Assembly: GCA_018646625.1 (NCBI GenBank)
Contig: JABGUJ010000001.1
Span: forward strand, 69,534-133,533
DNA from: Candidatus Woesearchaeota archaeon
GTDB lineage: Archaea; Nanobdellota; Nanobdellia; Woesearchaeales; JABGUJ01
DNA length: 64,000 nt
Direction: 5' to 3'
The position numbers and the translations under genes were made by a program. Of the stretch, positions 29,647 to 40,431 are shown piece after piece; the first letter of the stretch is position 1, and every line of letters starts with the position of its first letter. Under the pieces are notes generated by a model that saw only the letters and a program-made list of their open reading frames with translations, did no database searches and was not told where the DNA came from.

Positions 29647-30561
29647 CTAATCCACCAGATTTCTAAGATAATCTTTCTTAAGCTTAAATCCTTTCTTTTT
29701 TGCAATACGAGCTATAGCTTTATCGAACTTGCTACCGTACTGAGCACCTTGCTTCTTACGCCAAGCAAACTCATGCGACAAACCTTCTAATTCGGCAATT
29801 TCTCTTAAAACTATTTTCTTAAATTTATCATTGATTTTATGATCAGATGATATTTTCATTGCAGATTTTATAACATCTTCATCCAAAAAAGGCAACCTAA
29901 AATCAATGTCAGCCGCATTTGCAATTGAAACATCACGAAGAATATCTCTTTGCCACATCATCTTCAACCCATTCCAACATTCATCATCTACATCATTAGC
30001 TTCAGAATGTCTTTGATAACCTGCAAAGATTTCTTCACTACCCAACCCAGAAAAGAACACAGAATCGTCTGCCAATTTCTTCGCCGCCAATATAACAGCT
30101 CCAACACCAACCTTCACAAAGAAGTCTATTCCAAATTCTTTTGGTTTTGGTAAAATTTTAACAACTTCTTCAATTATTTTTTCAGCTTCAGATTCGTTAT
30201 AGATCTTTTCAACATAATTTAAATCCAAATCTTTAGCAACTTTTCTTGAATAAATTATGTCCGGAGGAATCGCCATATTCTTATCAGAAAAACCAACAGT
30301 ATAACAAGTAAAATTTGCATTTTTATTTTTACACACTTGAGCAATAAAAGAAGAATCAACACCACCTGAAAAAAAGATACCGAAATGATGTTCAGGAATT
30401 CGTTTTTCTATTGCACTTACAAGTACTTTTCTTAATTCAACTTTAGCACCATCATAATCAACGAAACCTGCATGAGCTGCCTTGATGCCGCCTATATATT
30501 CAAACCACTTAGATTCATCACCTAAGGCACCTTTAACACTCAAATCAATGAATTTCGACAT
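29647..30561 (-). CDS. Asparagine-synthase-like PP-loop protein
   Basis: This protein of about 304 residues has the ATP-pyrophosphatase loop FFSGGVDSSF and a second motif FFSGLGSEEIFAGYQRH, both standard for the asparagine synthetase C-terminal domain. It lacks the N-terminal glutaminase domain, so it would need ammonia or a separate amidotransferase. It could also amidate another acid. The ATG at 30561 has GAGGG about 7 bases upstream and a TATA-like stretch near 30600; the longer frame to 30615 covers that promoter. Confidence 0.83.
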   Translation of the reverse strand: MSKFIDLSVKGALGDESKWFEYIGGIKAAHAGFVDYDGAKVELRKVLVSAIEKRIPEHHFGIFFSGGVDSSFIAQVCKNKNANFTCYTVGFSDKNMAIPPDIIYSRKVAKDLDLNYVEKIYNESEAEKIIEEVVKILPKPKEFGIDFFVKVGVGAVILAAKKLADDSVFFSGLGSEEIFAGYQRHSEANDVDDECWNGLKMMWQRDILRDVSIANAADIDFRLPFLDEDVIKSAMKISSDHKINDKFKKIVLREIAELEGLSHEFAWRKKQGAQYGSKFDKAIARIAKKKGFKLKKDYLRNLVD

Positions 30562-30686
30562 TATAGACCCTCTACTATCACTCAAACTATTAGTTAATAT
30601 AAAAAGCTTACCCAAAGAAAGACAAAGATTTAAATAAACAAATAACCATTATGATAATCAGAATTGTATAGTCCGGGGGGGTAAAA

Positions 30687-31112
30687 ATGCAAAGTATCAA
30701 AATAGAGAGAGGTAAGGCTAAAACCTCAAAAAAACCAAAAATTCTGGTGGTTGATGATGAACCACACATCGTAAATATGATCAAACTTGCAGTAGAAGAT
30801 AAGTTTGAAGTAATTGAAGCATATTCTGCACTAGAGGCAATAAAGAAAGCAAGAATAGAGAAACCAGATTTGATTACTGTAGATGTGATGATGCCAAACA
30901 CAGATGGACTAACTCTTTGCAAAAAGTTTAGAAAAATCCCCAGCACAAAAGATATACCAATTATGGTGATTTCTGCAAAAGATTCAATCCAAGATAAAAT
31001 TGCAGGAATTGACGCAGGCGCAATAGACTACTTAGAGAAACCATTCAAGATAGAAGAACTAAACTCTAAAATTGCCAACAACATTAATGCATACAAATGG
31101 TGGGAGAATTAA
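30687..31112 (+). CDS. Response regulator receiver protein, operon gene 1
   Basis: This 141-residue protein is a single receiver domain. The acidic pair D23-D24 (ILVVDDEPHI), phosphoacceptor D66 (TVDVMMPN), switch S96 (VISAKD) and K118 (LEKPFK) are all intact. About 18 basic residues precede the domain. A GGGGGGG ribosome-binding site lies just before the ATG, and an ATTTAAATA box at about 30629-30637 is the only clear promoter for the following operon. It lacks an output domain and may act as a phosphate shuttle. Confidence 0.92.
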   Translation: MQSIKIERGKAKTSKKPKILVVDDEPHIVNMIKLAVEDKFEVIEAYSALEAIKKARIEKPDLITVDVMMPNTDGLTLCKKFRKIPSTKDIPIMVISAKDSIQDKIAGIDAGAIDYLEKPFKIEELNSKIANNINAYKWWEN

Positions 31113-31571
31113 ATGGATGATCATAAACCCACCATATTGGTTGTTGATGACGACTTCGCTATAAGAACATTACTTGAATTTACTTTGAAAGGATACAACA
31201 CATTATTTGCAGAAGATGGAGATTCAGCAATAAAAACAATAAGACTAAATCTACCAGACTTAGTTATTTTAGATCTCATGATGCCAAGAGTAGACGGATT
31301 CGAAGTACTTAAAAAAATTAAAAGCGAATTGTTTACAAAAAACACTTACGTCATGATAGTTAGTGCAAAACATCACCCAAACGATCTTAAAAAGAGTATA
31401 ACTCTAGGAGTAGATGAATATCTCACCAAACCCTTTGAACCTGAAAAAGTAAGAAAACGAATCGACCAAATAATGCAAAACAAAGATCAAGGTTTACAGG
31501 AAAAAGGAATAAATAAAGAATACATGGGAACAATCCACTACATTAAAGGCAACAAAGCAATTGCAAGGTGA
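31113..31571 (+). CDS. Response regulator receiver protein, operon gene 2
   Basis: This 152-residue receiver has acids at D12-D13 (VVDDDFAI), D54 (ILDLMMPRV), S84 (IVSAKH) and K106 (LTKPFEP) intact. A C-terminal extension of about 30 residues (KGINKEYMGTIHYIKGNKAI) does not match a known output domain. The ATG follows the preceding TAA directly (TAAATG) with GGGAGA upstream, so translation is coupled. Confidence 0.92.
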   Translation: MDDHKPTILVVDDDFAIRTLLEFTLKGYNTLFAEDGDSAIKTIRLNLPDLVILDLMMPRVDGFEVLKKIKSELFTKNTYVMIVSAKHHPNDLKKSITLGVDEYLTKPFEPEKVRKRIDQIMQNKDQGLQEKGINKEYMGTIHYIKGNKAIAR

Positions 31572-31576
31572 CGACG

Positions 31577-32557
31577 ATGACAACATTAAACCCAGAGATA
31601 TCAAAGAAGATTATCAACTACTTAAAAACTAGATCCGACGGAGCCACCAGCTCAGAAATTTCAGAGAAAATTAATCATAACAGAATCACAGTAACAAAAT
31701 ATCTTCACGTTCTAGAAGCCAATCAAAAACTAACTAGTAAACGAATTGCCCAAGGAGTATTCTATAAGATCAACAAACCTGGAAGCAAAAAAAGAATACT
31801 TGTTGTTGACGACGAACCTCACATAGTTAATTTAATCAAGTTCAGCCTGCCTGATGAAATATACACAACCTATGAGGCATTCTCAGGTTTAGAAGCAATG
31901 GAAAAAGTCTTCACCGAAAATCCCGACTTGATCATTCTTGACTTAATGATGCCAGGCATTGATGGCTTCGAAGTGTGCAAAAGACTAAAGGAAAATCCAA
32001 ACACATGCGAAATCCCCATAGTTATCCTAAGTGCCAAAACTCAATTACAATCAAAAATCAAAGGAGTAAGTTTAGGTGCAGAAGATTATATAACTAAACC
32101 GTTTGATCCTGTAGAATTAGAAGCAAGAGTGAAAAGACTCTTACTAAACACGGAAGAAAACGGAAGACAAAAACTCATAGTGAACCAAGTATCACAAATC
32201 ATCGATACAAACAACATTACCCAAACCACTACATTAACTATTAAGAATATAGAAAAATACTCTAAGAAATATGGAACACGAAAAACTAACGCATTAACTA
32301 AGCTAATATATAGGCTAATCCTGCAACAAGCAGAAACTCAACGAGTCCCATTATTAAGATTAAGCAACAAAGAATTTATGTTATTCATCACCGAAGAAAA
32401 CAACTTATCTAAAGAAATTAAAGAAGAATTCAAGAAAATAATCCCATTTTTATACAATGGAGATAACACAAAAAAGATAAATTCATTAATAGAGCTAGAA
32501 ATCTCAAACATGAGCACAAAACAAGCTAAACAATTCATAGAAAAAAAGTACACCTAA
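31577..32557 (+). CDS. Winged-helix, receiver and GGDEF-like regulator
   Basis: This protein of about 326 residues has three parts. Residues 1-65 form a winged helix (SKKIINYLKTRSDGATSSEI; RITVTKYLHVLEANQKL). Residues 70-195 form a receiver with DDE acids, phosphoacceptor in ILDLMMPG, and KPFD. Residues 205-326 resemble a degenerate GGDEF fold: IKNIEKYSKKYG corresponds to the D-hFKxxND-YG start, and LSNKEFMLFI aligns with GGDEF, with the catalytic Gly-Gly-Asp lost. It should bind DNA and respond to phosphorylation. The start is the ATG at 31577, with GGTGA in position; a GTG at 31568 is less likely because it lies within that site. Confidence 0.85.
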   Translation: MTTLNPEISKKIINYLKTRSDGATSSEISEKINHNRITVTKYLHVLEANQKLTSKRIAQGVFYKINKPGSKKRILVVDDEPHIVNLIKFSLPDEIYTTYEAFSGLEAMEKVFTENPDLIILDLMMPGIDGFEVCKRLKENPNTCEIPIVILSAKTQLQSKIKGVSLGAEDYITKPFDPVELEARVKRLLLNTEENGRQKLIVNQVSQIIDTNNITQTTTLTIKNIEKYSKKYGTRKTNALTKLIYRLILQQAETQRVPLLRLSNKEFMLFITEENNLSKEIKEEFKKIIPFLYNGDNTKKINSLIELEISNMSTKQAKQFIEKKYT

Positions 32558-32558
32558 C

Positions 32559-32954
32559 ATGAAAGGAAAAATCCTAATTGCGGAAGACGAACCCCACATT
32601 TTAGAGTTAATTAAATTCACGTTATCCGATTCATTCGAAATACTAGAAGCGGAAGATGGAGAACAAGCCATGAAAATCATAGAAGATAACAAGGATAATT
32701 TACCAGATCTTGTGCTACTAGATGTTATGATGCCAAGAATGAATGGCTTCGAGGTGTGCGAAAAGCTAAAATCAAATACAGAAACAAAAGACATAATCAT
32801 TACAATGCTCTCTGCCAAAGGCCAAATACAAGAAAGAATGGAAGGAATGCGTAAAGGTGCAGACCACTACATAACAAAACCGTTTGACCCAATGGCATTG
32901 AAAGAACAACTTGAAATCATTGTAAACAACAAAAACAGGAGGGATAAAATATGA
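32559..32954 (+). CDS. Response regulator receiver protein, operon gene 4
   Basis: This 131-residue receiver has acids E9-D10 (ILIAEDEPHI), phosphoacceptor D55 (LLDVMMPRM), S85 (MLSAKG) and K107 (ITKPFDP). There is no output domain. It follows the previous gene by one base, and its stop overlaps the next start as ATGA. Confidence 0.92.
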   Translation: MKGKILIAEDEPHILELIKFTLSDSFEILEAEDGEQAMKIIEDNKDNLPDLVLLDVMMPRMNGFEVCEKLKSNTETKDIIITMLSAKGQIQERMEGMRKGADHYITKPFDPMALKEQLEIIVNNKNRRDKI

Positions 32955-33340
32955 GTAATAATGACAAAAAATGTGTCTTAATAATAGAAGACGACAAAAA
33001 TATAGCACAACTAGAAGGAATAGTTCTAAACCAAGACTATGAGGTATACTTCGCAAAAGATGGTGAAGAGGGACTAAAGCTAGCCAATGAATTCAAACCA
33101 GATCTAATTGTACTAGACATTATGATGCCAAAAATGGATGGCTATGAAGTGTGTAGACAAGTTAGAGAGAATCCAGAACTACAAAACACAAAGATAGTGA
33201 TGGTAAGTGCAAAATCAACAGAAATAGATCACGACAAAGGTATGTTAATCGGAGCAGATGATTACATCGCAAAACCATTCGAGATAGATGAACTAAAACA
33301 CGTCATTGAACAACAATTCCTAAAAGATGATAACAGCTAA
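32951..33340 (+). CDS. Response regulator receiver protein, operon gene 5
   Basis: This 129-residue receiver has acids E13, D14 and D15 (IIEDDKNI), phosphoacceptor D56 (VLDIMMPKM), a switch Ser (MVSAKS) and KPFE. Its ATG overlaps the preceding TGA by ATGA, and AGGAGGGATAAA upstream is a strong ribosome-binding site, suggesting an abundant product. The C-terminus overlaps the kinase gene frame by 14 bases. Confidence 0.92.
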   Translation: MSNNDKKCVLIIEDDKNIAQLEGIVLNQDYEVYFAKDGEEGLKLANEFKPDLIVLDIMMPKMDGYEVCRQVRENPELQNTKIVMVSAKSTEIDHDKGMLIGADDYIAKPFEIDELKHVIEQQFLKDDNS

Positions 33341-36086
33341 AGGCATGAAACTCAAAGGAAAGAAAGAATACCAGATTTTTCTAGATAATTCTAACGACCC
33401 AGTCGTCATATTAGATAAAGAAGGAAAAATCTTTGACACAAACACCAAAGGCGCAAAGATGCTCAAAACTCCTAAGAAAAATCTGATAGGAATGAGTATT
33501 TATGACATTGTAGACAACCCTGATGCCGCAAGAAGAAATGTTAGGAAAATAGTAAGAGGAATTACCACCGTAGCCTCAGAATACCAAGTAACAAAAAACG
33601 ACGAAAAATTTCATGTTGAAGTGAGCAGTTTCCCTGCAATCATAAACAAAAGATCATACGCTTTTTGTCAAATTCGAGACATTACAAAAAAAGTAAAACT
33701 AGAAGCAGATCTTAAAAAAAGATTAAGAGATCTGACAGTACTCTACAAAATCTCAAAAGAGACAACAAAAAATAAGAAAATCGAGAATGTACTTGATACA
33801 ACCATAAAAATTTTAAAAGAAGATTTGGGTTACGAAAAGAGTTTTATTGCAGTTCAAGACGATAATGAACTCAAAATGCGATCTACATTTGGATTAAAGA
33901 ACGTAGGTACAGATCTCAAAGAAGTTAAATGGAGAATACTAGCAGGAGAAGGAATAACCGGCCACGTAATGAAAACAGGAGAGCCATTATTATTAAAATC
34001 ACCCGAGAAACACCCAAAATACCTGGCCGCCCTGAAAAGAACAAAATGTGAACTCACAGTCCCAATCAAAATCCAAAAGAAAGTAATTGGTGTACTAGAT
34101 GTAGAAAGTAACAAAGATGATCGTTACAGCAAAGATGATTTAAATCTACTAACAAACATCGCTAACCACATAGCATTAGTTATTGAAAATCTACAACTTC
34201 AACACGAACAAGATAAAAAAATAGAAAGAATAAAAACAATATACAAACTTGCAAAAGCCCTATCATCCACATTCGAACAAGAGAAACTGTTTGACGAAGT
34301 TACAAGGCTTCTTTCCAGCATGAATCAAGCTAAAGCAGTTACAATGTACATTCTAGATGGCGCCAGTGAAGAATTATTTTCAGTATCTACCTTCAGATAT
34401 GGTAAAAAATGCAATAGAGAAGTTAGCCTACCATACAATAAATCATTCACAGGAAGTGCCATGCAAAAAGGAGAAGTTCTCCAGTGCATAGATCCTCTAA
34501 AACGGAAAGGATTTACTAAAGAAGGAAGAAAATTTATTGAAACCGAAAATGTTCGCTCATTCGTTACAGTACCCCTAAAAGTTGACAACACCACGATTGG
34601 TGCAATAAACATTTACAGCGAATCCCCCAAACCATTCTCAGAAAACCAGATGGTATTTGTAGAAAGTATCTCCGATCACGTTGCCATCATTATTAGAAAT
34701 GCTAGATTATACAACAGACTAAAAGATTTTAACGAAATACTACAAGAAGAAACATATTCAGCAACAAGAGAGATAAGAGAGAAAAACAAAGAGCTAAGAC
34801 GATTATCTAACGAATCTGTAGCCGAGAAAAACAAAATAGAAGCCATGATCGATAGTATCTCTGAAGGTATTATCGTAACCTACTTTGATTCACCAATTAT
34901 GTCATTTAATCCAGCTACAGAAAAGATTTTACAGTTCGACTCAGAAAAATTAGGCCCAAAAGCCACAACACAGCACTTAAGCAAGATAGGGTTAATCGAA
35001 GTATTAGAACTCGCAAGAAAAGTTGATCAACCTGTCTTCATAAAAGAGATGAAATTAGGTCAACCAGTAAATAAATACATAAGAGTTACAATCACCATGC
35101 TTAAAGATCAAGATCAAGAGGTCGGTCTCGTTACTGTTCTGAGAGACATCACTAAAATTAAAGAAATCGACAGAATGAAATCTGAATTCGTCAGTGTTGT
35201 ATCTCACGAACTAAGAACCCCATTAACCTCCATCAAAGGATATTCCTCATTGTTACTTAACGAAAAAGTTGGTAAAGTAAATGAACAACAAAAACAGTGC
35301 TTGGCCATACTTAACGAAGAAAGTGACAGGTTAGCTAATCTGATAAACGATGTTTTGGACTTATCAAAAATGGAATCAGGAAAAATGTCACTAAATCAAA
35401 AGATCGATTCCTTAGAGCCTATATTGCAAAACGTTGTAAAGAACTTCGAAGTAGCTGCTAAAGAAAAAGAAATCTCACTAACTTACAAAATTGCAAACAA
35501 AATCCCGGAAATCCCTATAGATAAAGATAAAATAAAACAAGTTCTAATCAACCTTGTAAGTAATGCAATTAAATTTACCAACAACAAAGGTAAAGTCGAG
35601 ATAACAGCAAGAGCAGGTCAAAACTACGTAAGAGTTTTTGTTAAAGACAACGGCCGCGGCATTAAGAAACAAGAATTACCAAGAATATTCAATAAATTCT
35701 ACCAAATAGATCCACACATGACCAGAGCACAAGGAGGCTCAGGGCTCGGTTTAGTGATTGCTAAAGAAATCATAGGACTACACCATGGTTTAATGGACGT
35801 AAAAAGTGAATACGGTGAAGGCAGCGAGTTTATCTTTTTACTCCCTCAAAGAAAAATGAAACCTGCTGAAAAACTTAAGAAGTGTTGGGAAGAGATAAAT
35901 TGTAGCAAGGTCACATGTCCCGCGTATGGTTCATCCGATAGACGATGTTGGCTCATCCCAGGCACAGAAGCATGTAGAATGGGAATGAAAGACAACATGA
36001 AAGATAAATTAAGTCACTGCAAATACTGTCCAATACATTTAGAAGCCTTTGGAAAAAAGACAAAAAAGAAAGTGAAAAAAACATGA
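33327..36086 (+). CDS. Sensor histidine kinase PAS-GAF-GAF-PAS, Cys-rich tail
   Basis: This 919-residue kinase is soluble, with no membrane span. In order: PAS (residues 15-120), GAF (about 135-295), GAF (about 300-465), a coil, PAS-like (about 503-612), HisKA with H627 in VVSHELRTP, and the ATPase with N746, DNGRGI (774-779) and GGSGLGLV (803-810). All catalytic boxes are intact. The tail, residues 850-905, has C853, C859, C864, C874, C883, C898 and C901 in the pattern CWE..NC....CPAYG...RCWLIPGT, like the two-CW module attached to some bacterial sensors, which may bind metal or an iron-sulfur cluster. An ATG at 33345 is an alternative start. It probably phosphorylates the receivers encoded upstream. 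Confidence 0.92.
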   Translation: MITAKGMKLKGKKEYQIFLDNSNDPVVILDKEGKIFDTNTKGAKMLKTPKKNLIGMSIYDIVDNPDAARRNVRKIVRGITTVASEYQVTKNDEKFHVEVSSFPAIINKRSYAFCQIRDITKKVKLEADLKKRLRDLTVLYKISKETTKNKKIENVLDTTIKILKEDLGYEKSFIAVQDDNELKMRSTFGLKNVGTDLKEVKWRILAGEGITGHVMKTGEPLLLKSPEKHPKYLAALKRTKCELTVPIKIQKKVIGVLDVESNKDDRYSKDDLNLLTNIANHIALVIENLQLQHEQDKKIERIKTIYKLAKALSSTFEQEKLFDEVTRLLSSMNQAKAVTMYILDGASEELFSVSTFRYGKKCNREVSLPYNKSFTGSAMQKGEVLQCIDPLKRKGFTKEGRKFIETENVRSFVTVPLKVDNTTIGAINIYSESPKPFSENQMVFVESISDHVAIIIRNARLYNRLKDFNEILQEETYSATREIREKNKELRRLSNESVAEKNKIEAMIDSISEGIIVTYFDSPIMSFNPATEKILQFDSEKLGPKATTQHLSKIGLIEVLELARKVDQPVFIKEMKLGQPVNKYIRVTITMLKDQDQEVGLVTVLRDITKIKEIDRMKSEFVSVVSHELRTPLTSIKGYSSLLLNEKVGKVNEQQKQCLAILNEESDRLANLINDVLDLSKMESGKMSLNQKIDSLEPILQNVVKNFEVAAKEKEISLTYKIANKIPEIPIDKDKIKQVLINLVSNAIKFTNNKGKVEITARAGQNYVRVFVKDNGRGIKKQELPRIFNKFYQIDPHMTRAQGGSGLGLVIAKEIIGLHHGLMDVKSEYGEGSEFIFLLPQRKMKPAEKLKKCWEEINCSKVTCPAYGSSDRRCWLIPGTEACRMGMKDNMKDKLSHCKYCPIHLEAFGKKTKKKVKKT

Positions 36087-36526
36087 ATAGCATCACATTC
36101 TCTGCAACAGGTCACGAAAATATTCTCGCAACACACGAGAGAAGCTTCGAATTTACAAAATCCAAAGAAATAAGTAAAGATGCAGATTGTATAATGGGCG
36201 TAAACTCAGACTACAAACTTGAAGAACTAGAATTTTTGAAAGATAAAGTTAAAGTTAAGATAACAATAGATGTTGAAAATTTAAAAGAAGAAATAATCGC
36301 ATACGGATCTCCTGAACTCACATTCTCAGATGAAGGATTCGTAGTAAGAATGACAAATGTCATCAACCCTAAAACAGGTGCAATATATGCAGATAAATCT
36401 TCCAAGACCATCAACAAAAAATTGATTGAAAAAATGAAACACAAAGAAACTAAAATGACAATCACAATTGAAGTAATAGAAAAATATGAGAAACTAGACT
36501 TTTACGAAGGATTAAGCATGTTCTAA
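36083..36526 (+). CDS. DUF371 family protein
   Basis: This 147-residue protein matches the archaeal DUF371 family: FSATGHENILATHERSFEFT then KEISKDADCIMGVN are close to family-standard. Its function is unknown. The ATG overlaps the kinase TGA by four bases, so it is read in the same message as the phosphorelay genes. Confidence 0.87.
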   Translation: MNSITFSATGHENILATHERSFEFTKSKEISKDADCIMGVNSDYKLEELEFLKDKVKVKITIDVENLKEEIIAYGSPELTFSDEGFVVRMTNVINPKTGAIYADKSSKTINKKLIEKMKHKETKMTITIEVIEKYEKLDFYEGLSMF

Positions 36527-36527
36527 G

Positions 36528-36998
36528 ATGGCAAGAAAACAAATAAGAAAAAAAGAAGTTAAAGAACTAAACGAAGAGTTAGAAAAAGAATATGATATAG
36601 AAGAAATAATAAACAAAAAAAGTAAAGTAGAACTTGAGAAAACAGACTCGGGAGAGTATATTATAGTTGAGAATGAAATAGATTTTTTCAAGATAAACAA
36701 CAAATGGATTCCAACATTAAGATTTACACTTAGAAAAAACATTCTAAAGAAAGTTACAGTTGACATGGGTGCAGTAAAATTTGTAACATCTGGTGCAGAT
36801 ATCATGCGGCCAGGAATAAAAGCTGTAGAAGAAGCAGAAAAAGAAGAAGCAGTAGTAATAATTGATGAAAAAAATCTAAAACCCCTGGCCATCGGCCAAC
36901 TATCATTTTCAAGCTCAGAACTTCTAAAAATGAACTCTGGAAAAGTCGTTAAAAATCTACATTTCGTAGGAGACAAGCTCTGGAACGGCCAAATATAA
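36528..36998 (+). CDS. PUA-domain protein, MCTS1-like
   Basis: This 156-residue protein has a pre-PUA N-terminal half and a C-terminal PUA domain with VTVDMGAVKFVTSGADIMRP followed by GI, nearly the family-standard RNA-binding motif. Eukaryotic relatives (MCTS1/Tma20, eIF2D) help recycle or start ribosomes; archaeal members are expected to bind tRNA or rRNA. It begins one base after the DUF371 stop. It sits at the end of the phosphorelay operon, so translation genes and signalling genes share a transcript. Confidence 0.85.
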   Translation: MARKQIRKKEVKELNEELEKEYDIEEIINKKSKVELEKTDSGEYIIVENEIDFFKINNKWIPTLRFTLRKNILKKVTVDMGAVKFVTSGADIMRPGIKAVEEAEKEEAVVIIDEKNLKPLAIGQLSFSSSELLKMNSGKVVKNLHFVGDKLWNGQI

Positions 36999-37060: not shown

Positions 37061-38197
37061 ATGATGAGCCGTAGACACCTTCTAGATTCAGGTCTAAGAG
37101 ACAGACTAAGTGGAGAAGATAAACAACAAATTCTCGAAGCCAATGGTAATCCAAAATATTGGCTAGAATTCATAGTTCTATACCTAAAACAAAGTCCGAC
37201 AGACAAAGAAGTTGTAGACACCTATGGAAAAGAAAGCATCAAAGCATATAGACTCGCAGAAAAAACATTTGCAAACTGTCACAGAGGATGCGGTAACCCA
37301 ACCATCGCGCACACTCAAGATACCGCATACCGATTAAGATTATCCATCGGTCAAGATCAAAGATATATGCAAGCAGCATTATTGCATGATGTCGTTGAAG
37401 ATAAATCAAAAAGTTTTCAAGATCTTGAAAGAGGATTAGAATATATTGTTGAAGAGTTTGGAGAAGATACAGCAAGAGATGTTGATATGTTAACAAACAC
37501 ATTCTCGGTTCTTGCAAAAGGAATTGAAAAAAGAACAGATCTAGAACACGAAAGAAATGCTATGACCGTCAAAAGAGTTATTCACGATACTCTAGACAGA
37601 ATGGAAGAAGAAACAAAAGAACAAGGAATATACGGAAAGTATCAAAATTATTTTAATCAATTCCGACAAATGATTAGAGAAACAAAAGCCGAAGAATGGA
37701 CAATGCTAAAACAACGCTTCGAAACATTTACTCTCTACGACTTCTTGAAGTTCAGATCTTATGATCTATACTTAGAAGAAATAAAAAGAGAAACCATAGA
37801 AAGAGCAGAGAAAGGCGACGAATACTACGCAGTTCCACTTTTAGTAAAATTATCAGATAGTATTGATAATATCCGAACTACTTCACCTCTAGATCGAAGA
37901 AGAATGGATAAACTTATTGTAAAGACAGAATCAAGAATAAAATTAACAGGGGAAATTGTTGAAGAACTAAAATCTAAGGGTCATGAAAACACAGAATTAG
38001 AAAACAGATGCAAACAGTTAAAAGCAGAATACGTACATTTCTTAAAACAATCAATCAATGTCAGCTCAGCTCTTCCAGACAGTAGATGGCAAACACTAAG
38101 AACACACATCAAAAAACAGTACGGACACGCATTAAAAACATATTATCAAGGAAAACTCCCACCCATACCAGAAGAAGATCTTTCTGCAGGACTTTAA
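37061..38197 (+). CDS. HD-domain protein resembling RelA/SpoT hydrolase
   Basis: This 378-residue protein has the motifs of the (p)ppGpp hydrolase HD domain. H84 is in IAHTQDTAYRLR, ALLHDVVEDK contains H109, D110 and the ED pair typical of RelA/SpoT, and LVKLSDSIDNIRTT matches the KLADRLHNMRT signature. A long helical insert (about 115-265) separates them. In RelA/SpoT and MESH1 enzymes this domain removes pyrophosphate from ppGpp with Mn. Archaea generally lack ppGpp, so the natural substrate is open. A TATTATAT box at 37029-37036 gives a near-leaderless start. The partner gene follows 9 bases later. Confidence 0.83.
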   Translation: MMSRRHLLDSGLRDRLSGEDKQQILEANGNPKYWLEFIVLYLKQSPTDKEVVDTYGKESIKAYRLAEKTFANCHRGCGNPTIAHTQDTAYRLRLSIGQDQRYMQAALLHDVVEDKSKSFQDLERGLEYIVEEFGEDTARDVDMLTNTFSVLAKGIEKRTDLEHERNAMTVKRVIHDTLDRMEEETKEQGIYGKYQNYFNQFRQMIRETKAEEWTMLKQRFETFTLYDFLKFRSYDLYLEEIKRETIERAEKGDEYYAVPLLVKLSDSIDNIRTTSPLDRRRMDKLIVKTESRIKLTGEIVEELKSKGHENTELENRCKQLKAEYVHFLKQSINVSSALPDSRWQTLRTHIKKQYGHALKTYYQGKLPPIPEEDLSAGL

Positions 38198-38206
38198 TTA
38201 AAGAAA

Positions 38207-39976
38207 ATGAGCGGATTAGACGCATTAGTGGATACAGAACTTAAGCAGTTTGTAGAAAGCTGCGCAGTAGCATTAAGATACTTGGTAGAAGATTCTCCAG
38301 TCCCACAAAGAGTTGAAAATGTGATTAAGAAGAGATATCCTTTTGTTGGCGAGAAGATAGGACTAGAAGCAGAACACGGAGAATCAATAGTGCGCCAATT
38401 ATTTGACAATATTAGAATGATTTATGCGTTTGATAAAAGTCATACAATAGATGTACTAAATCACAGAACAGAAACTGAAACAAGAGTGTGGCAGTTCAGA
38501 GATAGAAGCAATATTTGGAGAGCATACTCAGGCCACAAGGCAGAGAAAAGTCTTTTAGAAAAGATTGCTAAATGGACACAAGGAAGAAATATCGAACATT
38601 CTAGAATGAGAATCATTATTAAGAACTCAGCAAGTCCTCCAACTCCGCCGGTAATAAAACTCCCTCACAAAGGTGGAGAACAGAGGAAAGGATCTCAAAA
38701 AACAAAAGAAGACAGCGCCTGGCGAACCTATAAAGCAGCATACGAACAAGCTAACATTGTGGAAGCCAGAAGATTAGCTGACTGGATCTCAAGCCCAGCA
38801 CGACCGTGGGAAGTCATCGCACCATTCCCTCAACACAGACTATGGATAGACTCAGATAGAACATACAGCGTAAAACATAGAAGTCAAATTATTAGTGATG
38901 GAGATCCAGAAAGTCTATACGAGCCAATAGATACATCGCTATATAGATTTGAAAAAGTTGAAGGCGCAATAGCATTCATGAACAACATTCGAAGAAAAGA
39001 AGATGACCGAATTACCGACGACATCAGAACCCAAGTAAGAAAAGCAATAAGTAAACAAAATCCATATGCAAGACTGGATGATTTAGTTATATACCAAGAT
39101 GGAGACAAATTCTGTGTTGCAGCAAGAAATCTAGACACCATAGTTGATATTGAAACAGAAGTTGACATAATGGAAGAAGAACTATTCTACTCAGAATATA
39201 AAACAGCAATCACCAATCTATTCGGAAGCATCGCATCTAAAAAGAAAAGTAGAGTTAGTGTGTGGGATGACAAAACCCAAGCCGTAAGATATTTTGAAGA
39301 ATTAGAATCAGAAATGAGAGAGAAAATAGAAAAATTGAATCAACCGGGAAGAACAGTTATAAGAGTTTACAAAGTTAAAATAGTTACAGCAGATGATGAT
39401 TGTTTTATAGTAAGATACAACGGAACAACAAAATTATATGCCAGAATTGGAAACACCATAATTGAAGACACAGCAACTTCTGAGCGAAGATTAGGAGAAA
39501 TAAAAACAAATATAAAAAAATTATATGCAAAAAAAACACCTAAAGCAAGAGAAAAGTTAACATACCAATTATTCGAAAGAGCACATCACCCTAACAGGGA
39601 TTATTTAGACGAAATCAAGTTAAGATTCGAAGATCTACCTCGCGGATGGGGAGTAATGGATAGAACAGTCGATCAAGAAGCACACAACAGATTCGACCTT
39701 ACAGTCGACGGAACAGCAGGCTCAGTAAGATATGAAGATATGAGCTTACATCCAAAGAAAAGAAAAAAAGGGTCACCATTTGACTCTCAAATCAATATTG
39801 ATGTAGTTTTCAGAGGAAAAAAAGTAGAAATACAACTTCGAACCCCTGAATGGCATTATCAGTGTGAAGATGGAAAATATGCACACAACGCATACAAAAC
39901 AGAGGGGCCATCACCAGAAAACACACGAGCAGAACTACTCCTAAATTATTTAGGACAATTACACTTAACTGATTAA
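38207..39976 (+). CDS. RelA/SpoT synthetase-like protein, partner of HD gene
   Basis: This 589-residue protein has, near its C-terminus (about 515-575), SLHPKKRKKG, VVFRGKKVEIQLRTPEWHY, and CEDGKYAHNAYK, matching the second half of the RelA/SpoT nucleotidyltransferase: YxSLH, VEIQIRT (with the catalytic Glu) and AAHWxYK. I cannot see the first-half ATP-binding motifs (RxKS, Dxx-GxRI) in the sequence upstream, so it may be divergent or inactive. Residues 1-450 are unfamiliar, soluble and charged. It directly follows the HD gene, echoing the HD-SYN order of a fused RSH. Function as a nucleotide alarmone enzyme is inferred. Confidence 0.7.
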   Translation: MSGLDALVDTELKQFVESCAVALRYLVEDSPVPQRVENVIKKRYPFVGEKIGLEAEHGESIVRQLFDNIRMIYAFDKSHTIDVLNHRTETETRVWQFRDRSNIWRAYSGHKAEKSLLEKIAKWTQGRNIEHSRMRIIIKNSASPPTPPVIKLPHKGGEQRKGSQKTKEDSAWRTYKAAYEQANIVEARRLADWISSPARPWEVIAPFPQHRLWIDSDRTYSVKHRSQIISDGDPESLYEPIDTSLYRFEKVEGAIAFMNNIRRKEDDRITDDIRTQVRKAISKQNPYARLDDLVIYQDGDKFCVAARNLDTIVDIETEVDIMEEELFYSEYKTAITNLFGSIASKKKSRVSVWDDKTQAVRYFEELESEMREKIEKLNQPGRTVIRVYKVKIVTADDDCFIVRYNGTTKLYARIGNTIIEDTATSERRLGEIKTNIKKLYAKKTPKAREKLTYQLFERAHHPNRDYLDEIKLRFEDLPRGWGVMDRTVDQEAHNRFDLTVDGTAGSVRYEDMSLHPKKRKKGSPFDSQINIDVVFRGKKVEIQLRTPEWHYQCEDGKYAHNAYKTEGPSPENTRAELLLNYLGQLHLTD

Positions 39977-40431
39977 TCAGCACAAAGAATTCTTCGAGTT
40001 TTAGGAACCTGATTTAACAAAACCCCTTTAGAATAAATAGCAGTACCGGCATAATCTCTTCCCGACTTCACAATCAGCGATCCAGAACCATCAACCCGTT
40101 CTTTAGGTAATTTAAGATCTTGACCTTTCAACCAATCCCTTAATTCTTCAAAACTTAACTCAACAATATTCTTCTTTGCCAAAGGACCAACTAACATACT
40201 ACCCTCCATGCTCAAAACAAAATCTTTGTCTAATAAAGTTCCAAAGAAAAGACCCATAGAATTAATTCTAAGATTTTCAAAATCAATCTTATCCAAATCC
40301 CTAGTGATCATATAAACTCTTTCTCCAGAAATCAAAAACGCGTTTTCAGTAGTATAATCACAACCCCACTTCCTATTTACAGAAGCCAAGATCTCTTTCT
40401 TTTTTTTATTGTTCAGTATCTTAAAATTCAT
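39973..40431 (-). CDS. Nip7-like PUA-domain protein
   Basis: This 152-residue protein resembles Nip7, a ribosome biogenesis factor. ERVYMITRDLDKI, SMGLFFGTLL and the PUA end LIVKSGRDYAGTAIYSKGVL follow the Nip7 order, and the C-terminus is KTRRI-like. Archaeal Nip7 binds RNA through its PUA domain. It converges with the RelA/SpoT-like gene, sharing the TTAA at 39973-39976 in their stop codons. Confidence 0.75.
   Translation of the reverse strand: MNFKILNNKKKKEILASVNRKWGCDYTTENAFLISGERVYMITRDLDKIDFENLRINSMGLFFGTLLDKDFVLSMEGSMLVGPLAKKNIVELSFEELRDWLKGQDLKLPKERVDGSGSLIVKSGRDYAGTAIYSKGVLLNQVPKTRRILCAD

Follow-up and report, generated by a model that had tools for sequence, protein, structure and literature searches.

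The closest known arrangement to the gene pair described here is that of FaRel and ATfaRel. In this toxSAS system of Cellulomonas marina, the RelA-type synthetase FaRel is encoded beside the small alarmone hydrolase (SAH) antitoxin ATfaRel, a small HD enzyme that can neutralize the product of the synthetase, with a further, type II antitoxin in the operon (PMC11782079). CapRel, in which a toxSYNTH domain is fused to a pseudo-zinc-finger antitoxin, acts against phages by pyrophosphorylating tRNA (PMC9712102). RelA/SpoT-type (RSH) enzymes are also on record from archaea. Short archaeal RSHs have been known since 2011 (PMC3153485), and RelA/SpoT, with a predicted bacterial origin, was reported in 41.7% of Woesearchaeota (PMC8407392). 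Given that figure, the premise of the original prediction for this DNA, that alarmone signaling is rarely described in archaea, is not supported.

The window analyzed here is a stretch of 64,000 nucleotides from a Candidatus Woesearchaeota archaeon (the genome is referred to as G000). It contains two adjacent genes, P1 and P2, encoding an RSH-type HD hydrolase and a divergent RSH-type synthetase (SYNTH). By gene layout the pair is like FaRel and ATfaRel. However, the synthetases found at this locus are archaeal, 300-965 amino acids long and placed at one fixed chromosomal position, some of them with long insertions or CxxC regions. CapRel has a RelA-type synthetase domain in common with them, and several members of the locus contain zinc-finger-like CxxC pairs, but no C-terminal pseudo-zinc finger was recognized in them and there is a separate HD hydrolase gene instead. 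In long RSHs (Rel, RelA and SpoT) HD likewise precedes SYNTH and the metal-binding residues are the same, whereas here there are two genes, no TGS domain was seen, a long insertion appears to lie within SYNTH, and a canonical RSH is encoded separately. Separate SYNTH-only and HD-only genes are also found in rickRel/rickSpo and in the archaeal short RSHs divRel, pbcSpo and Mesh1-L, although the cited part of PMC3153485 does not describe them as hypervariable, as paired or as tied to one fixed locus.

We propose that this locus is an archaeal counterpart of the toxSAS and small-alarmone-hydrolase modules, held at a fixed chromosomal slot and used in conflict or antiviral defense. We give this reading a probability of roughly 0.6; the biochemistry and the immunity in it are predictions.

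Results

P1 is an RSH-type HD hydrolase

P1 and P2 are two intact, co-directional open reading frames on the plus strand, with 9 nt between them (Table 1).

Table 1. Coordinates of the pair, its motifs, its conserved borders and a further synthetase gene of the same genome (window positions unless a locus record is named)
Feature	Position	Strand	Description
DUF371 gene, conserved left border	36083..36526	+	Pfam PF04027, 8e-30; gene order shared by G065, G042 and many loci
DUF1947/PUA gene, conserved left border	36528..36998	+	Pfam PUA, 1.3e-18
P1	37061..38197	+	HD hydrolase of the RSH type (378 aa), upstream gene
P1 R75 to H84	37283..37312	+	Conserved Arg and first metal His region
P1 HDVVED motif (H109 D110 E113 D114)	37385..37402	+	H109, D110 and E113 invariant in 23/23
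P1 KLSDSIDN	37847..37870	+	D266, last metal ligand, plus N270
P2	38207..39976	+	Divergent RSH-type synthetase (589 aa) with a long insertion, downstream gene
P2 residues 109-139	38531..38623	+	Probable degenerate ATP-binding half (K111..K120..E130..R135); individually non-significant alignments, one register
P2 residues ~150-500	38654..39706	+	Insertion between the halves; no Pfam match over the cut-off
P2 residues 507-569	39725..39913	+	Guanosine/Mg half of RelA_SpoT: VEIQLRT, YAHNAYK; E541 is the Mg ligand equivalent
PUA-like gene, convergent, conserved right border	39973..40431	-	Overlaps the P2 stop by 4 nt
Third synthetase of G000	L151:6292-6996 (C2 ~378.3-379.0 kb)	-	Pfam RelA_SpoT, 2e-13

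P1 has the full metal site of RSH hydrolases (H...HD...D, plus the E after HD), with H84, H109-D110, E113-D114 and K263-L-S-D266-x-x-x-N270 all present. It matched Pfam HD_4 above the cut-off (2.5e-6), NCBIfam spoT_relA (1.5e-10), a profile built from the HD domains of 15 canonical Woesearchaeal RSHs (E=2e-12) and PDB structures of RelA HD domains (1.9e-5). The generic HD family (0.016) fitted less well than HD_4, and the earlier assignment of the first protein to the RSH-type hydrolases, rather than to another HD family, is thus upheld. Families f10, f82 and f37 contain the closest relatives of P1 (4.6e-32 to 5.2e-11). The G459 and G181 relatives occupy the same chromosomal slot beside partners whose motifs read as SYNTH, with profile support in G459 only, and the relative in G269 adjoins a DUF371 gene. 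AlphaFold2 models of P1 and P2, each from a three-row alignment, had pLDDT values of 36 and 39 and were discarded as uninformative.

The pair occupies a fixed slot across the order

Direct sequence searches with P2 found relatives in two genomes only, G065 and G042. In both, a DUF371 gene lies on one side and the convergent PUA-like gene on the other, as in the window, and G042 also has the DUF1947/PUA gene at the left border. By these searches the pair seemed nearly unique, a view that was overturned by searching through the conserved neighboring gene. Among 353 Woesearchaeales genomes, 315 carry the PUA-like border gene, and through it the relatives that the original prediction had suggested looking for were found, as same-slot pairs across the order.

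DNA beyond the PUA-like gene was taken from 80 genomes, and 71 of these loci were long enough to judge. Assigned by profile matches and motif inspection, 15 of the 71 have a SYNTH+HD pair, 12 have SYNTH only, 5 have HD only and 39 have neither, frequencies that are approximate because sampling favored the highest-scoring PUA-like genes and long contigs. A DUF1947/PUA or DUF371 gene comes soon after in 24 of the 39 loci without SYNTH or HD. On profile evidence alone, among 240 open reading frames of at least 250 amino acids, the confident SYNTH and HD matches sit in the slot beside the PUA-like gene. Every pair has the HD gene first and SYNTH second. The two genes overlap or are separated by a few to about 120 nt, and the bicistronic layout seen in the window recurs, as an overlap or a short gap, in most other pairs. 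The slot is kept in at least 20 families of a single DPANN order, and its contents make up a previously unrecognized, order-wide, hypervariable RSH-type module.

Several other features were noted around the slot. Positions 30687-36086 of the window hold five response-regulator genes in a row and then a 919-aa GAF/PAS histidine kinase (read from the translations). Two-component genes are seldom packed so densely in an archaeal genome of small size. In several genomes the neighborhood of the slot includes an asparagine-synthase-like PP-loop protein with the motif SGGVDS (window 29647-30615; L149:5982-6830; L161:3645-4547; L163:2565-3425). In G281 a DNA methylase gene (N6_N4_Mtase, 3e-63; L113:579-1400, minus strand) separates the PUA-like gene from the SYNTH/HD pair. 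Of five public records matched by the PUA-like alignment, two (L146 and L147), named 'Methanosarcinales archaeon' and 'Candidatus Aminicenantes bacterium', match Woesearchaeales contigs of G131 and G042 and are probably mislabelled bins.

Active-site residues are conserved in otherwise divergent proteins

The 23 HD proteins of the locus, aligned with MAFFT, have a mean column identity of 14%. Leaving the start aside, H84, H109, D110, E113 and D266 (P1 numbering) are invariant in all 23, although the conservation of H109 and D110 is partly selected because some members were chosen by an LxHD pattern; H84 and D266 were not so chosen. R75 (21/23), K263 (21/23) and N270 (19/23) are nearly invariant. 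We take the conserved residues to be the metal site and neighboring catalytic residues of RSH hydrolases, as known from Rel structures.

Motif residues are also kept in the 28 SYNTH proteins of the locus. In the R-x-K motif the R is present in 24 of 28 and the K in all, and the next conserved K is found in 26; the D that binds Mg is kept in 27 of 28, the E of ExQ in 19, the H in 24 and the Y in 22. The first-half motifs of RSH synthetases are present in most of the partners other than P2. Pfam RelA_SpoT detects 12 of the 28 synthetases (best 7e-16). When four locus synthetases other than P2 were compared with the PADLOC candidate family PDC-S33, three matched it (5.6e-7 to 5.6e-9). Zinc-finger-like CxxC pairs lie N-terminal to the synthetase domain at L074, L107, L093, L092, L083, L116, L117 and L071; P2 does not have them.

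Alleles at the slot are replaced

In G122 and G230, which belong to one genus, identity is 44-46% for SYNTH and the adjoining small gene, where dS is saturated (3.2-3.6), and 88-94% for the flanking genes, where dS is 0.37-0.66. Saturated dS in the cassette next to unsaturated flanks indicates allele replacement and not fast point mutation. Within genus g100, the flanks are 58-81% identical and SYNTH and HD are 24-40% identical or unalignable. One species of this genus has HD without SYNTH, and the SYNTH and HD of another cannot be aligned to those of its congeners. The alleles of the congeners G037 and G281 have been inherited vertically, with dS equal to that of the flanks and dN mildly raised, at about 1.4-1.9 times the flanks. 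At 0.35-0.39, the GC content of the pair is close to that of the neighboring DNA, and a horizontal origin judged by base composition was rejected.

A protein of about 175 amino acids with no Pfam match lies between the PUA-like and SYNTH genes in two records (L116:459-986 and L117:459-983, minus strand) and has been swapped along with SYNTH. It is possibly an alternative partner or antitoxin where HD is absent.

A hypervariable slot with allele exchange around a constant active site fits a conflict role better than housekeeping nutrient signaling. A housekeeping module would provide a basal alarmone level for the control of growth and translation, and its fast evolution would come from weak constraint outside the active site. 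The fixed locus does adjoin translation genes (DUF371, PUA proteins, IF5B), the G037/G281 alleles descended vertically with equal dS, and RelA/SpoT is common in DPANN genomes (PMC8407392). We nevertheless consider this explanation unlikely, since the module is missing from more than half of the 71 sampled loci, its alleles have been replaced between flanks that have not, and it has no fixed division of labor with the canonical RSH, which half of its carriers do not have.

P2 appears to be a synthetase interrupted by an insertion

The one recognizable part of P2, residues 507-569 at its C-terminus, matched the canonical RSH profile over the second half of the synthetase domain (hmmsearch, 3.9e-5; hhalign probability 93.5 with the single sequence). 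A three-row profile of the C-terminal part gave an hhalign E value of 8e-6, and BLASTP aligned this part to another SYNTH gene of G000 (1e-7). Pfam RelA_SpoT scored 0.011 on P2, under the cut-off. Three synthetase motifs had been named in this region. VEIQLRT and YAHNAYK proved to be genuine, and E541 is kept. In contrast, the SLH motif was a coincidence: 'DMSLHPKK' is out of register and precedes the real PK motif. In the hhalign alignment the equivalent of YQSLH is FDSQIN, downstream of PKK, and the Y and H of GYxSLH are replaced.

The ATP-binding half, which had been called missing, escaped detection by profile and by ungapped PSSM, and to this extent the claim stands; residues ~109-139, however, probably hold a degenerate version of it, split off by the insertion. 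This region is indicated by hhalign, a sub-threshold HMM segment, a weak BLASTP match to the third synthetase of the genome and a five-protein alignment, none of which is significant alone. E130 of P2 stands at the position of the D in G065 and G042, with R135 after it, and P2 is the exception at the D column among the locus synthetases; the R of RxK is replaced too (H/K).

The case for this first half is built on bridging homologues, whose N-termini stayed unaligned in two of three MAFFT modes. A chain of BLASTP matches (window to G065, 3.5e-15 over residues 11-552; G065 to G181, 8e-4; G181 to G498, 1.6e-9 and 3.4e-4) supports the collinearity of the long synthetases. The first-half acid lies at residue 130-157 in all five long synthetases, with the second-half acid 347-470 residues further on. 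The likeliest anatomy of P2, as far as it can be read from the sequence, is a synthetase domain broken by an insertion of ~350 residues, with a weakened ATP half. Since this half is degenerate and interrupted, P2 may be weakened or its reaction changed.

The window allele could also be a decaying remnant, with an active HD hydrolase and a dead P2 that only binds or regulates P1. The first half of P2 is below detection, and the substitutions at the R of RxK, the D and the H of SLH would suit such decay. However, the 589-aa reading frame is intact, EIQLRT and AHNAYK are retained, and the long insertion is common to P2, G065 and G042 and, by transitive BLASTP, to the long synthetases of G181 and G498, which makes five families with this type. 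We regard a dead P2 as quite unlikely.

The genome has a complete RSH elsewhere

G000 encodes a complete canonical RSH (a 659-aa frame) on contig C4 (~185490-186446, minus strand; L002). Its third RSH-type gene is a standalone 234-aa RelA_SpoT synthetase (Table 1) with no adjoining HD gene. A canonical RSH was found in 17 of 34 genomes with the module and in 7 of 28 without it, and the module is thus independent of the canonical enzyme. The idea that a fused RSH had been split into two genes fails on both counts: an intact RSH on C4 led us to reject P1 and P2 as the broken halves of the cell's own enzyme, and 17 of the 34 carriers have no canonical RSH. That some ancestral long RSH was truly split, with HD and SYNTH reassembled as one complex, is very improbable, for although both domains are RSH-type and their order in every pair is that of an RSH, a complete RSH is present in the same genome, no TGS or further RSH C-terminal domains were seen, the locus synthetases have their own N-terminal region of ~200 amino acids, often with CxxC pairs, SYNTH and HD each occur alone at some loci, and a comparable split reading of rickRel/rickSpo is rejected in PMC3153485.

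Discussion

On the reaction, substrate, trigger and role in defense, we infer the following from homology, layout and evolution. The fixed Woesearchaeales slot would hold a two-gene module of RSH-type synthetase and hydrolase, with P1 and P2 as one of its alleles. P2 would transfer pyrophosphate from ATP to a 3'-OH, either that of a nucleotide or the one at a tRNA CCA end, and P1, encoded directly upstream in the same apparent operon, would take the pyrophosphate off again. P1 would thereby keep the product of P2 harmless until a trigger unbalances the two enzymes. Alleles of the slot are exchanged between lineages, in keeping with a conflict or antiviral role. That an RSH-type hydrolase/synthetase pair is present in an archaeon, as the original prediction held, is supported by relatives named Candidatus Woesearchaeota that were found through the PUA-like gene, and a nucleotide-signaling or antiviral module is plausible.

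Strict toxin/antitoxin pairing is not universal at the slot, because 12 loci have SYNTH only and 5 have HD only. No relative was found in viral contigs searched with P2, the P2 alignment and P1, or in phages and plasmids searched with P2; phages searched with P1 gave only short HD-domain matches of 31-41% identity. No defense island was seen beside the pair, which sits among translation genes. A more specific version of the conflict reading can be held only tentatively: the locus may be a chromosomal immunity slot of the Woesearchaeales, in which fast-evolving synthetases that make alarmones or pyrophosphorylate tRNA are combined with an HD hydrolase that erases their product, for RSH-based abortive infection, and the insertion that splits the window's synthetase may be a sensor.

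Archaeal RSH enzymes are usually treated as scattered bacterial imports. A slot where the genes for both enzymes are exchanged and drift apart in sequence, with constant catalytic residues, would count as evidence that RSH chemistry serves archaea in conflict. Surveys based on profiles miss most of the synthetases in this slot. No canonical RSH is found in half of the genomes that carry the module, which may therefore be their only enzyme system of this kind. If it is the sole RSH-type system of half its carriers, alarmone function in DPANN archaea becomes testable.
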